From Candidatus Mcinerneyibacteriota bacterium (lineage in GTDB: Bacteria > Macinerneyibacteriota > Macinerneyibacteria > Macinerneyibacteriales > DSCS01): DNA of 9,509 nucleotides. The number at the start of each line of letters is the position of its first letter. Position 1 is the stretch's first letter. Below, in pieces: positions 3,962-9,335 of the stretch. The position numbers and the translations under genes were made by a program. The notes below the pieces were generated by a model that saw only the letters and a list, made by a program, of their open reading frames with translations, searched no databases and was not told the origin of the DNA. The stretch lies in the NCBI GenBank assembly GCA_016937175.1, contig JAFGWL010000046.1, forward strand, positions 1-9,509, read 5' to 3'.

Positions 3962-4120
3962 AAAAAGCCCGCGACAGAGTGGCGTTCCTTTTTAGTTGAG
4001 TCCCTTTTTACAAGTGGGCGCCTTGTAAGCGGCTTCCTGATTCCATTCCACCGCCCGAATCGGGCTCCCAAGGGAAAAATGTTGGCTCAACATAAATAGG
4101 CATCCTCTCATGCCGCAGGC
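3962..4120 (-). ncRNA. ssrS: 6S RNA
   Basis: 6S RNA binds the housekeeping RNA polymerase holoenzyme by imitating an open promoter and tunes transcription when growth slows. Read from 4120 downwards, the RNA starts GCCUGCGG and its 3' side ends CGCGGGC (3967-3973), forming a 7-bp closing stem (one G-U pair). An inner stem pairs GUUGAG (4086-4091) with CUCAAC (3995-4000). Between them lies the large central region, with the hairpin GCCCG-AUU-CGGGC (4053-4065) and a segment around GGCGCCCACUUGU that resembles 6S RNAs known to me. A U-rich run (3957-3966) follows the closing stem and probably ends the transcript. Length about 159 nt, slightly short of the common 160-200. It sits directly after zapA, the classic neighbour of ssrS. 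No covariance search could be run; the call rests on fold, motifs, promoter and context. Confidence 0.87.
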
Positions 4121-4126
4121 AGTTAT

Positions 4127-4161: not shown

Positions 4162-4425
4162 TCATAGGTGTCTCTCTATGGTTTTTTCTATTTCATCGAT
4201 TTCCTGGACGATCCTCCGGTGTTCCTCTTTCAACTCCCAAAACTCTTCGATAACAGTCAACAGTGTCAAAACCAGTATATCTTTGGGAGCTTCCATCCCG
4301 CCTGCGGTTCTGGCTTCTTCGATCTTCTCTTCCAGAAAACGCGCCATGGCGGTGATCTCCCCACTGCCTTTATCCGAACTCACTTTATACTTTTTTCCTA
4401 AGATTTCAAGCTCTAAGGTATTCAT
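4162..4425 (-). CDS. zapA: Cell division protein ZapA
   Basis: ZapA binds FtsZ filaments and bundles them, stabilising the cytoplasmic Z-ring. The 87-residue product has the family's usual size and architecture: an N-terminal strand pattern (MNTLELEILGKKYKVSSD) corresponding to the ZapA globular head, a helix with MARFLEEKIEEAR (27-39), a central ILVLTLLTVIEEFWELKEE stretch (50-68), and a charged coiled-coil tail ending IDEIEKTIERHL. The start lies three bases after the stop of the preceding small coiled-coil gene, in the same operon as pheST. The 6S RNA promoter begins within six bases of the stop. Only a weak GGGG lies ahead of the ATG, so translation is probably coupled to the upstream gene. 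Confidence 0.9.
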   Translation of the reverse strand: MNTLELEILGKKYKVSSDKGSGEITAMARFLEEKIEEARTAGGMEAPKDILVLTLLTVIEEFWELKEEHRRIVQEIDEIEKTIERHL

Positions 4426-4428
4426 CTT

Positions 4429-4629
4429 TCAAACCCCGAGGTTTTCCAGGGTATCGACGATCTTTTGAAGCCGAAGCTGCTCTTTATGTCTCGTCTCTTC
4501 CAACACCCTGAGGGATTCGCGTGCTTCCGTCAACGCATCCTCCTTTTCCCGGAGCTGGCGCCGGAGCTCTTCGACCTTCTCGATCAGTCCGAAGACTTTC
4601 TCTTCCAGGAGCGCCAGAGATCTTTCCAT
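4429..4629 (-). CDS. Small coiled-coil protein, possibly ZapB-like
   Basis: A 66-residue, highly charged protein with leucine-rich heptads along almost its whole length (LLEEKVFGLIEKVEEL at 7-22, then LRRQLREKEDALTEARESL), predicted as one continuous helix with no membrane segment. It starts two bases after the pheT stop, with GAGG inside the pheT end as ribosome binding site, and ends three bases before zapA. Size, composition and position immediately before zapA fit a ZapB-type partner that would link ZapA to other division components. Coiled coils attract false similarity, so ZapB identity is only a suggestion. That it is a real gene is well supported by tight packing between two certain genes. 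Confidence 0.75.
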   Translation of the reverse strand: MERSLALLEEKVFGLIEKVEELRRQLREKEDALTEARESLRVLEETRHKEQLRLQKIVDTLENLGV

Positions 4630-4631
4630 CC

Positions 4632-7022
4632 TTACCTCAATTCCGCATGAAAAACCTTTTTCATCCGGGCTACTATCTTTTGGATTATACCATCGATTTC
4701 CTTTTCCGTCAAAGTCCTTTCTTGTGACCGGAAGGTCAGAGAGAAGGCCAGGCTTTTCTTGTCCGAAGGAAGGCGGTCCCCCTCATACCGGTCGAAGAGG
4801 CGACACTCTTCCAGCAAAGCCCCGCCCTGTTCTACGATCTCGCTTTCCAGCTCACCGGCAGGAAGGGAAGAATCCACTACAAATGCCAGGTCGAAGTATA
4901 CGGGAGGAAAAGGGGAAAAGGGCACAAAGGAGCGTCCCGGCTGAAATCTTTCCGCCAGAGCCGCTGTTCGGGCATAACCGCCCCAGACTTCCTGACGTAT
5001 ATCAAAGATATCGGCGAGGTCTTTTCGCAGCATTCCTATTTCCAGGGCCTCCTTTCCGTTCACCATGTAGACAAACCCAGACTGCGGTGCCCAGACGGGA
5101 CGACGGCTCTCTCTTCTCTCAGCTTCTCTGCAGCCGGCTTTTTCCAGCAATCCCTCGATGATAGTTTTGGCGTCAAAATATCCCAGCTCATGGCCGGGAG
5201 AATAGACGGTCTTGGGTTCAAATCCGGCACAGAGGAAAGAAAGGGTCTCTGCTTCCCCTTCGAAAGAAGGATAGGACTTTCCCCATTCATAGAGCCTGAC
5301 AGCCCCGGCTCCTCTTTTCAGGTTCGTCTCTGCGGCTTTCACCAGCCCGAGAAGAGGTTCGGGGTTCATATATTCCATGTCCCGGTTGAGCGGATTGACC
5401 ACACGGGGCCGATCTCCGGGTTCATATCCGATTTTTTTCATCAGCTCTTCTGAAATGAAGGGATAGAGATAACATTCATAGAATCCGTTGGCTAAAAGAA
5501 TCATCTCTATCTCTCTGTAAAAAAGGGTTCGTTTGTCGCTTTTCCCCTTTCTCATCTTTAAAAGGGGAAGACTCTCGGGGATCTTGTCATATCCGTAAAA
5601 CCGCGCGATCTCTTCGATGAGGTCGATCTCCCGGCTTATATCCCAGAAGCGGCCGGACGGGACAGAGAGGGAGATAAGCCCTTCTCTCTCCTCGATAATA
5701 TCGTAATCCAGTTTTTGAAAAAGGAGAGACACTTCATCCTGAGAAAGCGAAATCCCCAGATGGCGGGGGATCTGGCTCACACGCAGAGAGAGGGCTCGCC
5801 TTGGTTCAAAGGAAGTGCTTTTTTCATCCACCATACCCCGGCAAAGTTCCCCTCCCCCCCATAGGGCGATAAGTGACGCTGCTCTCTGCGAAGAGGTCTC
5901 CACCGCCTCGAAGTCCATCCCCCGTTCAAATCTGTAGGAAGAATCTGTCTTCTGGTTGTGACGTTTTGCTGTCATCCGGATAGAGACCGGGTCAAAAAGG
6001 GCTGCCTCCAGGACGACATCCTTTGTCTCGGGTGTGATCTCCGAGTTTTCACCCCCGATGACCCCGGCCAGGGCGATTCCCCGCTTCGTATCGGCTATGA
6101 GCAGGTCCTCGTCTGTCAACTGAAGATGCTCACCGGCCAGGGTGTCAAACCCTTCCCCTGCCGAGGCCTTCCTGACGACGATCTTTCCCCCGCTTACTCC
6201 GCTCCTGTCAAAGGCATGGAGGGGTAATCCATACTCCCACATCACGTAATTGGTGGCATCCACAATATTGTTGATGCATCGCAGTCCCACAAGAGCCAGC
6301 CGGCAACGGACGAGAAGGGGAGACTCTTTGACAGAGACCCCCTGGATCACACGGGCGGTGTACCTGAGGCATTTGGCTGAATCCTTCACTTCCACCCCGA
6401 TCTTGTCCGTAACAGCCGTATTGCTTTCCCGGATCTGAAGAGGAGGGGTTTTCAGAGGCCTTCCCGCCGCCATGGCCACTTCCCGGGCGATCCCCCTTAC
6501 AGAGAGACAATCGGGGCGGTTGGAAGTGATCTCAAAATCGATCACCGTATCATCCAACCCGAAATAGGGAAGCGCGGGGGCTCCCCGGACCGGTTCAGGG
6601 GATTCCTCCATCAGGAAGATCCCCTCTGAATGCTCTTCAAGGCCCAGCTCCTCAAGGGAACAGAACATCCCCCGGGATTCCACGCCTCTCAATTTTGCTT
6701 TTTTTATGACCATCCCGCTGTGAAGGACCGCTCCTTCCACTGCGACAGGGACGAAAGCTTTTTCCCGGACATTGGGTGCTGCTGTGACGATCTGCAAAGT
6801 CCCCTTTTCTCCCATGTCCACATGACAGACTTGCAGCCGGTCAGCATCGGGATGTTTCTCCACCCGGGTAATATAACCGATATAGACCTCTTTGATCCTG
6901 TCTGAAGGACAAAAGACTTCTTCTATGTGAAGGCCTTGGGAGGCCAGCCGGTGCTCGAGGTCCTCGAGGGCCAGTCCGTCCAGGTCCACAAATTCATTCA
7001 GCCAGTTCCATGTCACTTTCAT
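4632..7022 (-). CDS. pheT: Phenylalanine-tRNA ligase beta subunit
   Basis: Beta subunit of the cytoplasmic alpha2-beta2 enzyme that charges tRNA-Phe; it carries tRNA-binding and editing functions. At 796 residues it has the normal bacterial length. Domains in order: N-terminal module; tRNA-binding (OB) domain with HPDADRLQVCHVD (57-69) and RGVESRGMFCSLEELGL (112-128); B3/B4 editing region (about 165-390) with NIVDATNYVMWEYGLPLHAFD (split across 252-272); B5 domain (about 405-485) with VPSGRFWDISREIDLIEEIAR (454-474); catalytic-like core (about 495-690); and the C-terminal anticodon-binding (FDX-ACB) domain (about 703-796), with the late KKSLAFSLTFRSQERTLTEKEI segment. In the core, the usual MRxSLxxGLL stretch reads MNPEPLLGLV (552-561), an unusual change. 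It starts 18 bases after pheS with GAGGAG eight bases before the ATG. Confidence 0.97.
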   Translation of the reverse strand: MKVTWNWLNEFVDLDGLALEDLEHRLASQGLHIEEVFCPSDRIKEVYIGYITRVEKHPDADRLQVCHVDMGEKGTLQIVTAAPNVREKAFVPVAVEGAVLHSGMVIKKAKLRGVESRGMFCSLEELGLEEHSEGIFLMEESPEPVRGAPALPYFGLDDTVIDFEITSNRPDCLSVRGIAREVAMAAGRPLKTPPLQIRESNTAVTDKIGVEVKDSAKCLRYTARVIQGVSVKESPLLVRCRLALVGLRCINNIVDATNYVMWEYGLPLHAFDRSGVSGGKIVVRKASAGEGFDTLAGEHLQLTDEDLLIADTKRGIALAGVIGGENSEITPETKDVVLEAALFDPVSIRMTAKRHNQKTDSSYRFERGMDFEAVETSSQRAASLIALWGGGELCRGMVDEKSTSFEPRRALSLRVSQIPRHLGISLSQDEVSLLFQKLDYDIIEEREGLISLSVPSGRFWDISREIDLIEEIARFYGYDKIPESLPLLKMRKGKSDKRTLFYREIEMILLANGFYECYLYPFISEELMKKIGYEPGDRPRVVNPLNRDMEYMNPEPLLGLVKAAETNLKRGAGAVRLYEWGKSYPSFEGEAETLSFLCAGFEPKTVYSPGHELGYFDAKTIIEGLLEKAGCREAERRESRRPVWAPQSGFVYMVNGKEALEIGMLRKDLADIFDIRQEVWGGYARTAALAERFQPGRSFVPFSPFPPVYFDLAFVVDSSLPAGELESEIVEQGGALLEECRLFDRYEGDRLPSDKKSLAFSLTFRSQERTLTEKEIDGIIQKIVARMKKVFHAELR

Positions 7023-7040: not shown

Positions 7041-8051
7041 CTACATGGTGGTCAGCATACGCAGGTCATTTTCATAAAAGTAGCGGATATCCGGGACTCC
7101 GTACATGAGCATGGCCATCCGCTCCAGCCCGAATCCGAAAGCGAATCCGGTATACTTCTCAGGGTCGATTCCCACGGCCCGAAAGACTTCAGGGTCCACC
7201 ATCCCGGCCCCTCCTATCTCCAACCACCCGCTACCCTTGCAGACAGAACAGCCCTTGCCTCCGCAAAAACAACTCATATAGACTTCAGCTGAAGGTTCTG
7301 TAAAGGGAAAGAATGAATTGTCAAACCTGGTCTTGACACCGGAGCCGAAAAGTTCGCTTAAAAAGGCATAGATGACCCCTTTAAGATCTCCGAAGGTGAT
7401 GTTTTCATCCACAGCCAGGGCTTCTACCTGATGAAAGACCGGGGAATGGCTGGCATCGGGGACATCGTTACGATAGACACGCCCCGGAGCGATCATATAG
7501 ATGGGGGGTTTCTCTTCCAGCATAGTCCGGATCTGGACAGGCGATGTATGGGTCCTGAGAACCATCTTCTCCCTGTTCAAATAGAATGTATCCTGCTCGT
7601 CCCGGGCTGGGTGGGTCTCAGGAATATTCAGGGCATCAAAACAGTGCCACTCGGTCTCCATGTCGGGACCCTGCCTGATATCAAACCCCATGCGGATGAA
7701 AATATCTTCCATCTGCCTGCGGACCGTAGTCAGGGGATGGACTTTAGCAGGAAGGACCCCGCGCGCCGGAAGGGTCCAATCCACCGCTATCTGTCCTTTA
7801 CAACTTTCCACAGCCCTTTTCTTTTCTTCCAGGGCTCTCTCCATCTCTGCTTTGGCTTTATTGACTTCTTTTCCCAGGGTCTTCTTATCTTCAGGAGAAA
7901 GTGTCTTGAGAAGCTTCATCATCTCCATGATAACGCTCTTTCGCCCCAGGTATTTCACCCGTACATCATTCCACTCCCCGGGGGATGCCGCAGCATCACA
8001 CTCTTTATGAAACGCCTGGAGCAGAGGCCCGATTTTTTCTGTTTCTTTCAT
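7041..8051 (-). CDS. pheS: Phenylalanine-tRNA ligase alpha subunit
   Basis: Catalytic subunit of phenylalanyl-tRNA synthetase (class II), making Phe-AMP and Phe-tRNA. The 336 residues match the short bacterial form. An N-terminal coiled coil (about 1-85) that grips tRNA is followed by the catalytic domain: HPLTTVRRQMEDIF (105-118, motif 1 region), RTHTSPVQIR (166-175), GRVYRNDVPDASHSPVFHQVE (motif 2, within 190-210) and GFAFGFGLERMAMLMYGV (motif 3, 302-319). Cys261, Cys263, Cys268 and Cys271 form a C-x-C-x4-C-x2-C knuckle also seen in part of the family and possibly zinc-binding. The ATG shares its A with the stop of the upstream ribbon-helix-helix gene (TAATG), with GAGGG just ahead, so translation is probably coupled to that gene. 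pheT follows directly. Confidence 0.97.
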   Translation of the reverse strand: MKETEKIGPLLQAFHKECDAAASPGEWNDVRVKYLGRKSVIMEMMKLLKTLSPEDKKTLGKEVNKAKAEMERALEEKKRAVESCKGQIAVDWTLPARGVLPAKVHPLTTVRRQMEDIFIRMGFDIRQGPDMETEWHCFDALNIPETHPARDEQDTFYLNREKMVLRTHTSPVQIRTMLEEKPPIYMIAPGRVYRNDVPDASHSPVFHQVEALAVDENITFGDLKGVIYAFLSELFGSGVKTRFDNSFFPFTEPSAEVYMSCFCGGKGCSVCKGSGWLEIGGAGMVDPEVFRAVGIDPEKYTGFAFGFGLERMAMLMYGVPDIRYFYENDLRMLTTM

Positions 8052-8245
8052 TATCCCTCACTGACTTTCTGTGTCCTCTCCCATGTCTCTTCGGCTACTT
8101 TTGCCATTTTATATCTTTTAAGATACTCATCCAGTATCACATTTAACGCTTTAGTCCGGTTTTCAAAAAAATGGTCCTCTTTAATGATCCTGTCCAATTC
8201 CTCGATCAGATAGGTCGATACAGCAACTGTGGTAAGTCTGTGCAT
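8051..8245 (-). CDS. Small ribbon-helix-helix (CopG/NikR-fold-like) protein heading the pheST operon
   Basis: A 64-residue protein whose pattern fits the ribbon-helix-helix DNA-binding fold: a short polar/hydrophobic alternating strand (LTTVAVS, 4-10), helix A (TYLIEELDRIIKE, 11-23), a turn, then helix B starting at NRTKALNVILDEYLKRYK (29-46), and a charged tail. Such proteins dimerise and insert the paired strand into the DNA major groove. I chose the ATG at 8245 because GGAGG (8254-8258) lies eight bases upstream; the open frame extends to a GTG at 8275 but those residues would overlap the ribosome binding site. No toxin gene is adjacent, so a toxin-antitoxin role is not supported. Position directly behind a promoter and palindrome, and stop-start overlap with pheS, suggest an autoregulator of the PheRS operon; this is inference. 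Confidence 0.8.
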   Translation of the reverse strand: MHRLTTVAVSTYLIEELDRIIKEDHFFENRTKALNVILDEYLKRYKMAKVAEETWERTQKVSEG

Positions 8246-8253
8246 GGCAACCA

Positions 8254-8258
8254 CCTCC
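8254..8258 (-). promoter_or_regulatory. Shine-Dalgarno that sets the ribbon-helix-helix start
   Basis: GGAGG eight bases before the ATG at 8245. It lies downstream of the alternative GTG (8275) and partly within an ATG at 8260, so the 64-residue product is the most probable. Confidence 0.75.
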
Positions 8259-8268
8259 ATTAATTTAT

Positions 8269-8289
8269 GACACACCTGCCCAGTGTGTC
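8269..8289. promoter_or_regulatory. Perfect inverted repeat at the transcription start, candidate operator
   Basis: GACACAC and GTGTGTC form perfect 7-base arms around a 7-base centre. The repeat begins about six bases beyond the -10 element, so it covers the predicted transcription start and first 20 transcribed bases. As DNA it suits a symmetric repressor dimer pair such as the ribbon-helix-helix protein encoded 24 bases downstream; as RNA it would form a hairpin at the very 5' end of the transcript, which could protect the mRNA. The sequence alone cannot decide between these. Confidence 0.55.
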
Positions 8290-8295
8290 TCCTCC

Positions 8296-8323
8296 ATTAT
8301 ACAGGGGGGGTCAAGAGTTTCAA
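8296..8323 (-). promoter_or_regulatory. Sigma70-type promoter of the ribbon-helix-helix / pheST / zapA operon
   Basis: TTGAAA (8318-8323) and a perfect TATAAT (8296-8301) are spaced by 16 bases on the minus strand; the predicted start is near 8289. The -35 begins 17 bases after the stop of the HD-Nudix gene, and no hairpin terminator lies between, so read-through from that gene is also possible. A run of seven C (8304-8310 on this strand) lies in the spacer. A second TTGACC nearer the -10 is too close (7 bases) to serve. Confidence 0.8.
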
Positions 8324-8339
8324 GAGCAAATCTCCGGGG

Positions 8340-9335
8340 TCACAGGCGGACTCTCTCCATAAAAAGGGAAAGGATCTTTCCATGGTCGAAAGCCAGGGAA
8401 GGAAGAGCGGAAAAAGAGAACCAACGGCTGTCACAGGCATCATCTCCCGGCCTGAGATCACCCTCGTCTGCGGCTGTCCCGTAATAAGCCAGCGAAACGG
8501 TCCCCCGTTCAAGGTCGCGTCCCGGAGAATCGAAGACAGCAAGAAAACGGGGGTCTTTCAGCTCAAGACCGGTCTCTTCGCGGACCTCCCGGACTACCGC
8601 CTCCCCAGCCGTCTCCCCCCAGTCCATAAATCCTCCGGGGAGAGCCCAGCTTCCCCGGAAGGGGTCCCTTCCCCGCCGGATGAGAAGAATCTTCCCCTGG
8701 CTGTTCAGCACGATACCGTCCACCACGGCAGGCCGGTTTTTCCAGCGGCCGCAATAGGGACAATCCTGCCGGATCTCTTCTGATAGAGGGTCCAGTGCCC
8801 GGTTATAGGCTGAAAGAGTCGCGGGGTGGATGAAAAGCCCTTCCTTCCCCAGAAAAGCAATGACCAGAGAAAGGGCTTTAAAGTAGGCCTCCCGGGGAGC
8901 TTTCCGGGCCAGCTTGCGCAGGAGGCGTCCTTCTTCCCACTTTCTTCCCGGTTCTCCCTTATCGGCCACATAGAGAAGGCGGGCCAAAGGTGTCATCGGA
9001 GGCCGGGCTGTCACATGGGAAGAGATAGCTGTCAGCACCTCTTCGTCCGTGACAATCCCTTCTCTTTTCAGAAGACAGGCTCCGGCCTCACCATGGAGAA
9101 GAAGAGGCCTCTCTTCTTCCCAGGGTTCGGGATGAGTCCCTCCTTCTCTGCACAGGCGGAGTATCTCCTCCGGGGGGAGGCCCCGGGCAATATCATGGTA
9201 AAGCCCTGCCTGGTAAGCCCTGGCAGGGGAAATATTCCAAAGAGGGGCCACTTCCGCCATAAAGGCCGCGGTCCGCTCCATGTGACGGACACGCCCCGGC
9301 TCCACACCCGCTATTTCAAAGATCTTCTTTTCCAT
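8340..9335 (-). CDS. Fusion of YqeK-type HD hydrolase and Nudix hydrolase
   Basis: A 331-residue two-domain protein. Residues 1-185 match YqeK-like HD proteins, some of which cut Ap4A symmetrically to two ADP: His18, His47-Asp48 (GLYHDIAR), His81 (HGEAGA), His107 (SSHVTA) and Asp125 followed by EPGR (128-131). The usual HTTG motif reads HVTA. Residues 190-331 are a Nudix hydrolase: a short CPYCG (192-196) precedes the domain, and the Nudix box is complete (Gly235, Glu241, Arg249-Glu250, Glu253-Glu254, Gly256). Nudix enzymes cleave nucleoside diphosphates linked to another group; the substrate here cannot be told, though ADP-ribose or Ap4A-type compounds are plausible. YqeK normally sits beside nadD and is a stand-alone protein, so both the fusion and this location are unusual. 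GAGGG abuts the ATG. It lies upstream of the pheST operon on the same strand. Confidence 0.88.
   Translation of the reverse strand: MEKKIFEIAGVEPGRVRHMERTAAFMAEVAPLWNISPARAYQAGLYHDIARGLPPEEILRLCREGGTHPEPWEEERPLLLHGEAGACLLKREGIVTDEEVLTAISSHVTARPPMTPLARLLYVADKGEPGRKWEEGRLLRKLARKAPREAYFKALSLVIAFLGKEGLFIHPATLSAYNRALDPLSEEIRQDCPYCGRWKNRPAVVDGIVLNSQGKILLIRRGRDPFRGSWALPGGFMDWGETAGEAVVREVREETGLELKDPRFLAVFDSPGRDLERGTVSLAYYGTAADEGDLRPGDDACDSRWFSFSALPSLAFDHGKILSLFMERVRL

Follow-up and report, generated by a model that had tools for sequence, protein, structure and literature searches.

The window, a 9,509-nucleotide stretch of contig JAFGWL010000046.1, belongs to a Candidatus Mcinerneyibacteriota bacterium, the draft genome of which comprises 1.88 Mb and is 98.7% complete. 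The minus strand of the window carries a pheST operon headed by a 64-codon gene, whose product is likely of the ribbon-helix-helix (RHH) type. The gene is followed by pheS, pheT, a gene for a short coiled-coil protein, and zapA (Table 1). The stop codon TAA of the 64-codon gene and the ATG of pheS share one base in the sequence TAATG. Gaps of 2–3 bases separate pheT, the coiled-coil gene, and zapA. The coiled-coil open reading frame, which bears a weak resemblance to ZapB, is conserved in the sister species.

The operon is preceded by a sigma-70-type promoter, the best promoter-like site in the 1.6 kb scanned, with TTGAAA at positions 8323–8318 and TATAAT at 8301–8296 separated by a 16-base spacer. 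An Rfam search gave no match to a T-box or other leader RNA, and a run of Phe codons is absent from the leader of approximately 44 bases. The only short open reading frame of the leader, MEETHWAGVS, lacks Phe, begins inside the -10 box, and was rejected as a leader peptide. An in-frame ATG further upstream (MEVVAMHRL) was rejected as the start of the 64-codon gene, since it is missing from both relatives. A first-pass annotation of this DNA had described the promoter, a perfect 7-7-7 inverted repeat at the predicted transcript start, the 64-residue reading frame overlapping pheS, and a leader with neither a T-box nor a Phe-rich peptide; all of these features are present as claimed.

Table 1 Features of the pheST operon and its promoter region in the window.
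Feature	Position	Strand	Remarks
Sigma-70-type promoter TTGAAA-N16-TATAAT	8296..8323	-	11/12 consensus bases; kept in sister species
TATAATGGAGGAGACACAC, -10/+1 block including left arm of inverted repeat, alternative candidate operator	8283..8301	-	0 differences in 19 bases in sister species
Inverted repeat GACACAC-N7-GTGTGTC at expected transcript start; also 8-pair RNA hairpin	8269..8289	-	Perfect arms
64-codon gene, likely RHH type, operon head	8051..8245	-	ATG start; GGAGG 8 bases upstream
pheS	7041..8051	-	TIGR00468, 321.6 bits
pheT	4632..7022	-	18 bases after pheS; named from sequence features and position
Short coiled-coil protein, ZapB-like (weak)	4429..4629	-	PF06005, E 0.01, below cut-off
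zapA	4162..4425	-	PF05164, 47 bits

Both flanks of the operon contain additional features. A 6S RNA gene (window 3962–4124, minus strand; Rfam 51.7 bits) is located between zapA and rny, and is found in the congener as well (L062 6627–6789). The linkage of zapA to 6S RNA is known from E. coli. Directly upstream of the pheST operon (window 8340–9335, minus strand) is a gene for a 331-residue protein composed of a YqeK-like HD domain and a Nudix domain. The HD domain matches TIGR00488, symmetrical Ap4A hydrolase, above the cut-off. Ap4A is made by tRNA synthetases.

The 64-codon gene is real and is under strong purifying selection. Comparison of the window and congener genes gives a dN of 0.08, a dS of 1.29, and a dN/dS of about 0.06, and 24 of their 35 differences are in third codon positions. 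The protein is 89% identical in the sister species, with one conservative change in the predicted strand. Between families, residues 1–52 of the protein are 75% identical, as compared to about 62% identity for PheS (312 residues).

The phylum Mcinerneyibacteriota is represented in the collection by only three genomes from two families. When 84,980 species genomes were scanned with the 64-residue protein, by a method that detects close relatives only, the matches were limited to Candidatus Mcinerneyibacterium aminivorans and a congener that had been submitted as a Bacillota MAG. Each of the three genomes of the phylum contains exactly one copy of the gene, positioned directly before pheS. The congener has the same TAATG overlap; in Candidatus Mcinerneyibacterium aminivorans, the two genes are 2 bases apart. 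The upstream neighbor of the operon is the HD-Nudix gene in the window and the congener, whereas in Candidatus Mcinerneyibacterium aminivorans it is an fhs-type gene for a 556-residue formate-THF-ligase-like protein. The linkage of the 64-codon gene to pheS is thus kept across families with differing upstream genes. None of the 28 pheS loci sampled from other families has a match to the 64-codon gene upstream of pheS.

The assignment of the protein to the RHH type was based on remote homology. A Pfam search of the window protein gave no match, and the curated RHH cut-off was not reached. The protein has weak matches to NikR (E 0.02–0.03), and one family member matches RHH_1 with an E of 0.03, below the cut-off. 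A search of 386 genomes identified nine small proteins with 24–34% identity over approximately residues 7–54. Both members of this MazE-type set that were scanned match RHH_1, and in all nine loci a MazF/PemK gene lies beside the relative, with the RHH gene first. Profile comparison using hhalign aligned residues 11–54 of the window family to the MazE-type set with 96.3% probability. The alignment shows that the motif NR(T/S) at the start of helix 2 is kept in the window family and the MazE-type relatives; this position anchors the DNA in RHH complexes (PMC9477884). The RHH protein named in the first-pass annotation is therefore backed by remote homology and not by a direct Pfam match.

The RHH type is likely and not proven, because the predicted strand is outside the profile match, its outward-facing residues are rather unpolar, and structure prediction was uninformative. 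The strand has the unpolar residues L4 and A8 at positions where the relatives often place DNA contacts. The AlphaFold2 monomer model, calculated from three sequences, is one long featureless helix with a pTM of 0.42, and therefore does not confirm the RHH fold.

The promoter and leader of the window and the congener were aligned over 86 columns with a one-base gap, and are 87% identical. Synonymous sites are near saturation between the two genomes, and there is no clear similarity upstream of TTTGCTCTTGAA. The promoter and leader stretch is therefore under selection. The sequence from TATAAT through GGAGGA, together with the left arm of the inverted repeat, is unchanged between the window and the congener. 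The conservation of this block is restricted to the genus, and the third genome shares no candidate operator. A conserved promoter alone does not prove a repressor site. Over the -35 box, there are two copies of CTCTTGA at a distance of 9 bases (CTCTTGAAACTCTTGACC; window 8308–8325, minus strand), which are imperfect in the congener and possibly form another candidate site for an RHH protein. In the third genome, AACCTA-N10-TAGGTT over the -10 box was considered as an operator and rejected, since 53% of shuffled leaders contain a repeat with 6-base arms.

We hypothesize that the first gene of the pheS-pheT(-zapB-like-zapA) operon encodes a small dimeric RHH repressor and is closely coupled to pheS. 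Most likely, the dimer would occupy the operon's promoter across the -10 box and the start of transcription, in competition with RNA polymerase. The resulting autorepression would keep the level of the RHH protein and, through the common transcript, that of PheRS homeostatic. Autorepression at the -10/+1 region is favored because small RHH proteins heading their own operons often bind there: MazE6 autoregulates by binding an 18-base site containing the -10 box (PMC9477884), and TrcR of Anabaena, a small RHH autorepressor, binds across its own -10 box and transcript start, repressing translation genes as well as its own gene (PMC10272220). The sequence data establish the gene, its linkage and overlap with pheS, the promoter, and the remote RHH homology; dimer formation, DNA binding, repression, and the exact site are inferred, as are the two steps that lead from a resemblance to RHH proteins to binding and from there to a controlled level of PheRS. 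We put the probability that the protein represses its own operon over the -10/+1 region, and thereby sets pheST, at about one half. The control of division and possibly downstream genes, as proposed in the first-pass annotation, is suggested by gene order only.

The inverted repeat at the transcript start may have a role of its own, independent of the RHH protein. Folded into a hairpin close to or at the 5' end of the mRNA, it may protect the transcript from 5'-end-dependent decay or tune translation. The hairpin contains 8 pairs in the window (z about -3.2), and its counterpart in the sister species also has 8 pairs, interrupted by one bulge (GACACACC-GGGC-GGTG-A-TGTC; z about -3.3). When an equal number of bases was substituted at random, this stability was retained in only 1–2% of trials; however, it was kept in 22% of trials when the change was modeled as one substitution and two indels. 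The comparison is limited to two sequences, as the leader of the third genome forms no stable hairpin (z -0.5), and the start of the transcript is itself predicted. We regard the hairpin function as a tentative proposal, with the odds somewhat against it.

The RHH protein could alternatively act on other promoters, as a global regulator or one with an unrelated target, and owe its place in the pheST operon only to a coupling of its level to translation capacity. Its conservation is strong for a mere autoregulator, and it is the single gene of its type in each genome. There are precedents in IHF, as ihfA is carried in the pheST operon of E. coli according to the account in PMC8942017, and in TrcR, which is an RHH regulator of translation genes (PMC10272220). 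Nevertheless, when the window's own genome and those of its relatives were searched for operators with either the palindrome or the conserved 18-base block, no site other than that of pheST rose above the control level. The block search of the genome identified no other site family, with counts similar to the control. A target elsewhere is rather doubtful.

The palindrome itself was proposed by the first-pass annotation as the operator; in this model, a pair of RHH dimers would span the transcript start by occupying GACACAC half-sites. The repeat has perfect 7-base arms located exactly at the expected start, and GACA-N13-TGTC is kept in the sister species. It is the sole match within two mismatches in the 1.88 Mb genome, which marks it as unique and also means that there is no second copy. 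The probability of any perfect repeat with 7-base arms and a loop of 3–12 bases in the 51-base leader is about 0.6% by shuffling, and the density of comparable repeats in the window predicts a count of 0.09. The repeat is therefore unusual and not extreme, and its rarity is suggestive, not strong. No stretch of the leader is less conserved than the right arm: three of its seven positions are changed in the sister species, in which the strand of the protein is almost unchanged. Of the 11 differences in the leader, 5 fall within the loop or the right arm (hypergeometric P about 0.015, for a region chosen after the fact). The leader of the third genome has no such dyad, even though the N-terminal strand of the protein is nearly identical. 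Since the symmetry is lost while the strand persists, the evidence does not support a conserved operator in the palindrome, and this assignment is unlikely. Of the two properties that the first-pass annotation expected relatives to share, linkage of the gene to pheS is conserved in 3/3 genomes and the palindrome is not. The palindrome is one candidate site for the RHH repressor, and the -10/+1 block is favored over it.

The nearest relatives of the protein outside the phylum are the RHH antitoxins of MazEF operons. No match to MazF/PemK (PF02452) was found in the window's genome or in genome G002, and the gene downstream of the RHH-type gene is pheS. The C-terminal toxin-binding tail, which ends with EWPEY in the MazE-type relatives, is missing from the window protein in the alignment. 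The absence of MazF and of the antitoxin tail rules out a MazEF toxin-antitoxin pair. The congener carries a PemK/MazF-like gene (G001:C58:2973-3290), which is absent from the window's genome. The protein probably descends from, or shares ancestry with, the MazE-type RHH antitoxins. That it is an orphan or decayed antitoxin without a regulatory role in pheST is nonetheless highly improbable in the face of the missing toxin gene, the strong purifying selection, the pheS linkage kept across families, and searches of viral, phage, and plasmid collections that found no relative of the protein.

The locus can be compared to several known systems. The first-pass annotation considered control of pheST by a DNA-binding protein as undescribed; however, himA-mediated operator-repressor control of the pheST-himA operon in E. 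coli is on record (Mechulam 1987, as cited in PMC8942017). In both E. coli pheST-himA (ihfA) and the window, a DNA-binding protein is encoded in the pheST operon. In contrast to the RHH gene, which is first in the operon, the E. coli IHF gene is located downstream, has its own promoter as well, and encodes an HU-type protein. E. coli pheST is additionally controlled by Phe attenuation through a leader peptide, whereas no attenuator was seen in the window. TrcR shares with the window protein the small RHH type and, on the reading proposed here, autorepression at the -10/start region and an action on translation genes; it differs in being encoded outside pheST and in regulating many promoters. 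The RHH-type MazE antitoxins share with the window protein the RHH motif NR(S/T)xAI/L and the position as the first gene of an operon, but have a MazF partner and the EWPEY-ending tail, in place of which the window protein has pheS as the partner gene and no tail.

The gene order infC-rpmI-rplT-pheST of many bacteria likewise places a regulator-type gene directly upstream of pheS. The ribosomal protein L20 autoregulates by RNA binding. Among the 28 loci from other families, rplT was found by eye upstream of pheS in 14. In the window, the RHH gene occupies the rplT position, and rplT of the genus is on another contig. A search of the open-access literature found no description of a pheST operon that begins with an RHH gene. 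Control of pheST by a repressor from its own operon is a known principle, of which the RHH gene heading pheST is a variant, so far of one small phylum.

We speculate that an antitoxin of the MazE type lost its toxin and gave rise to an RHH autorepressor present throughout the phylum, which replaced both RNA-based attenuation and the customary link to rplT in controlling PheRS; such a succession of events is doubtful on present evidence. The gain is at present modest, as the gene is restricted to the phylum and has a plausible, putative role. If the autorepression proves true, a DNA-binding protein resembling an antitoxin would have become a domesticated regulator devoted to an essential tRNA synthetase, in a phylum of which little is known. 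It would add a further mode of pheST control beside attenuation, T-box RNA, and IHF, and would provide a small, easily tested case of toxin-antitoxin parts turning into housekeeping regulators.
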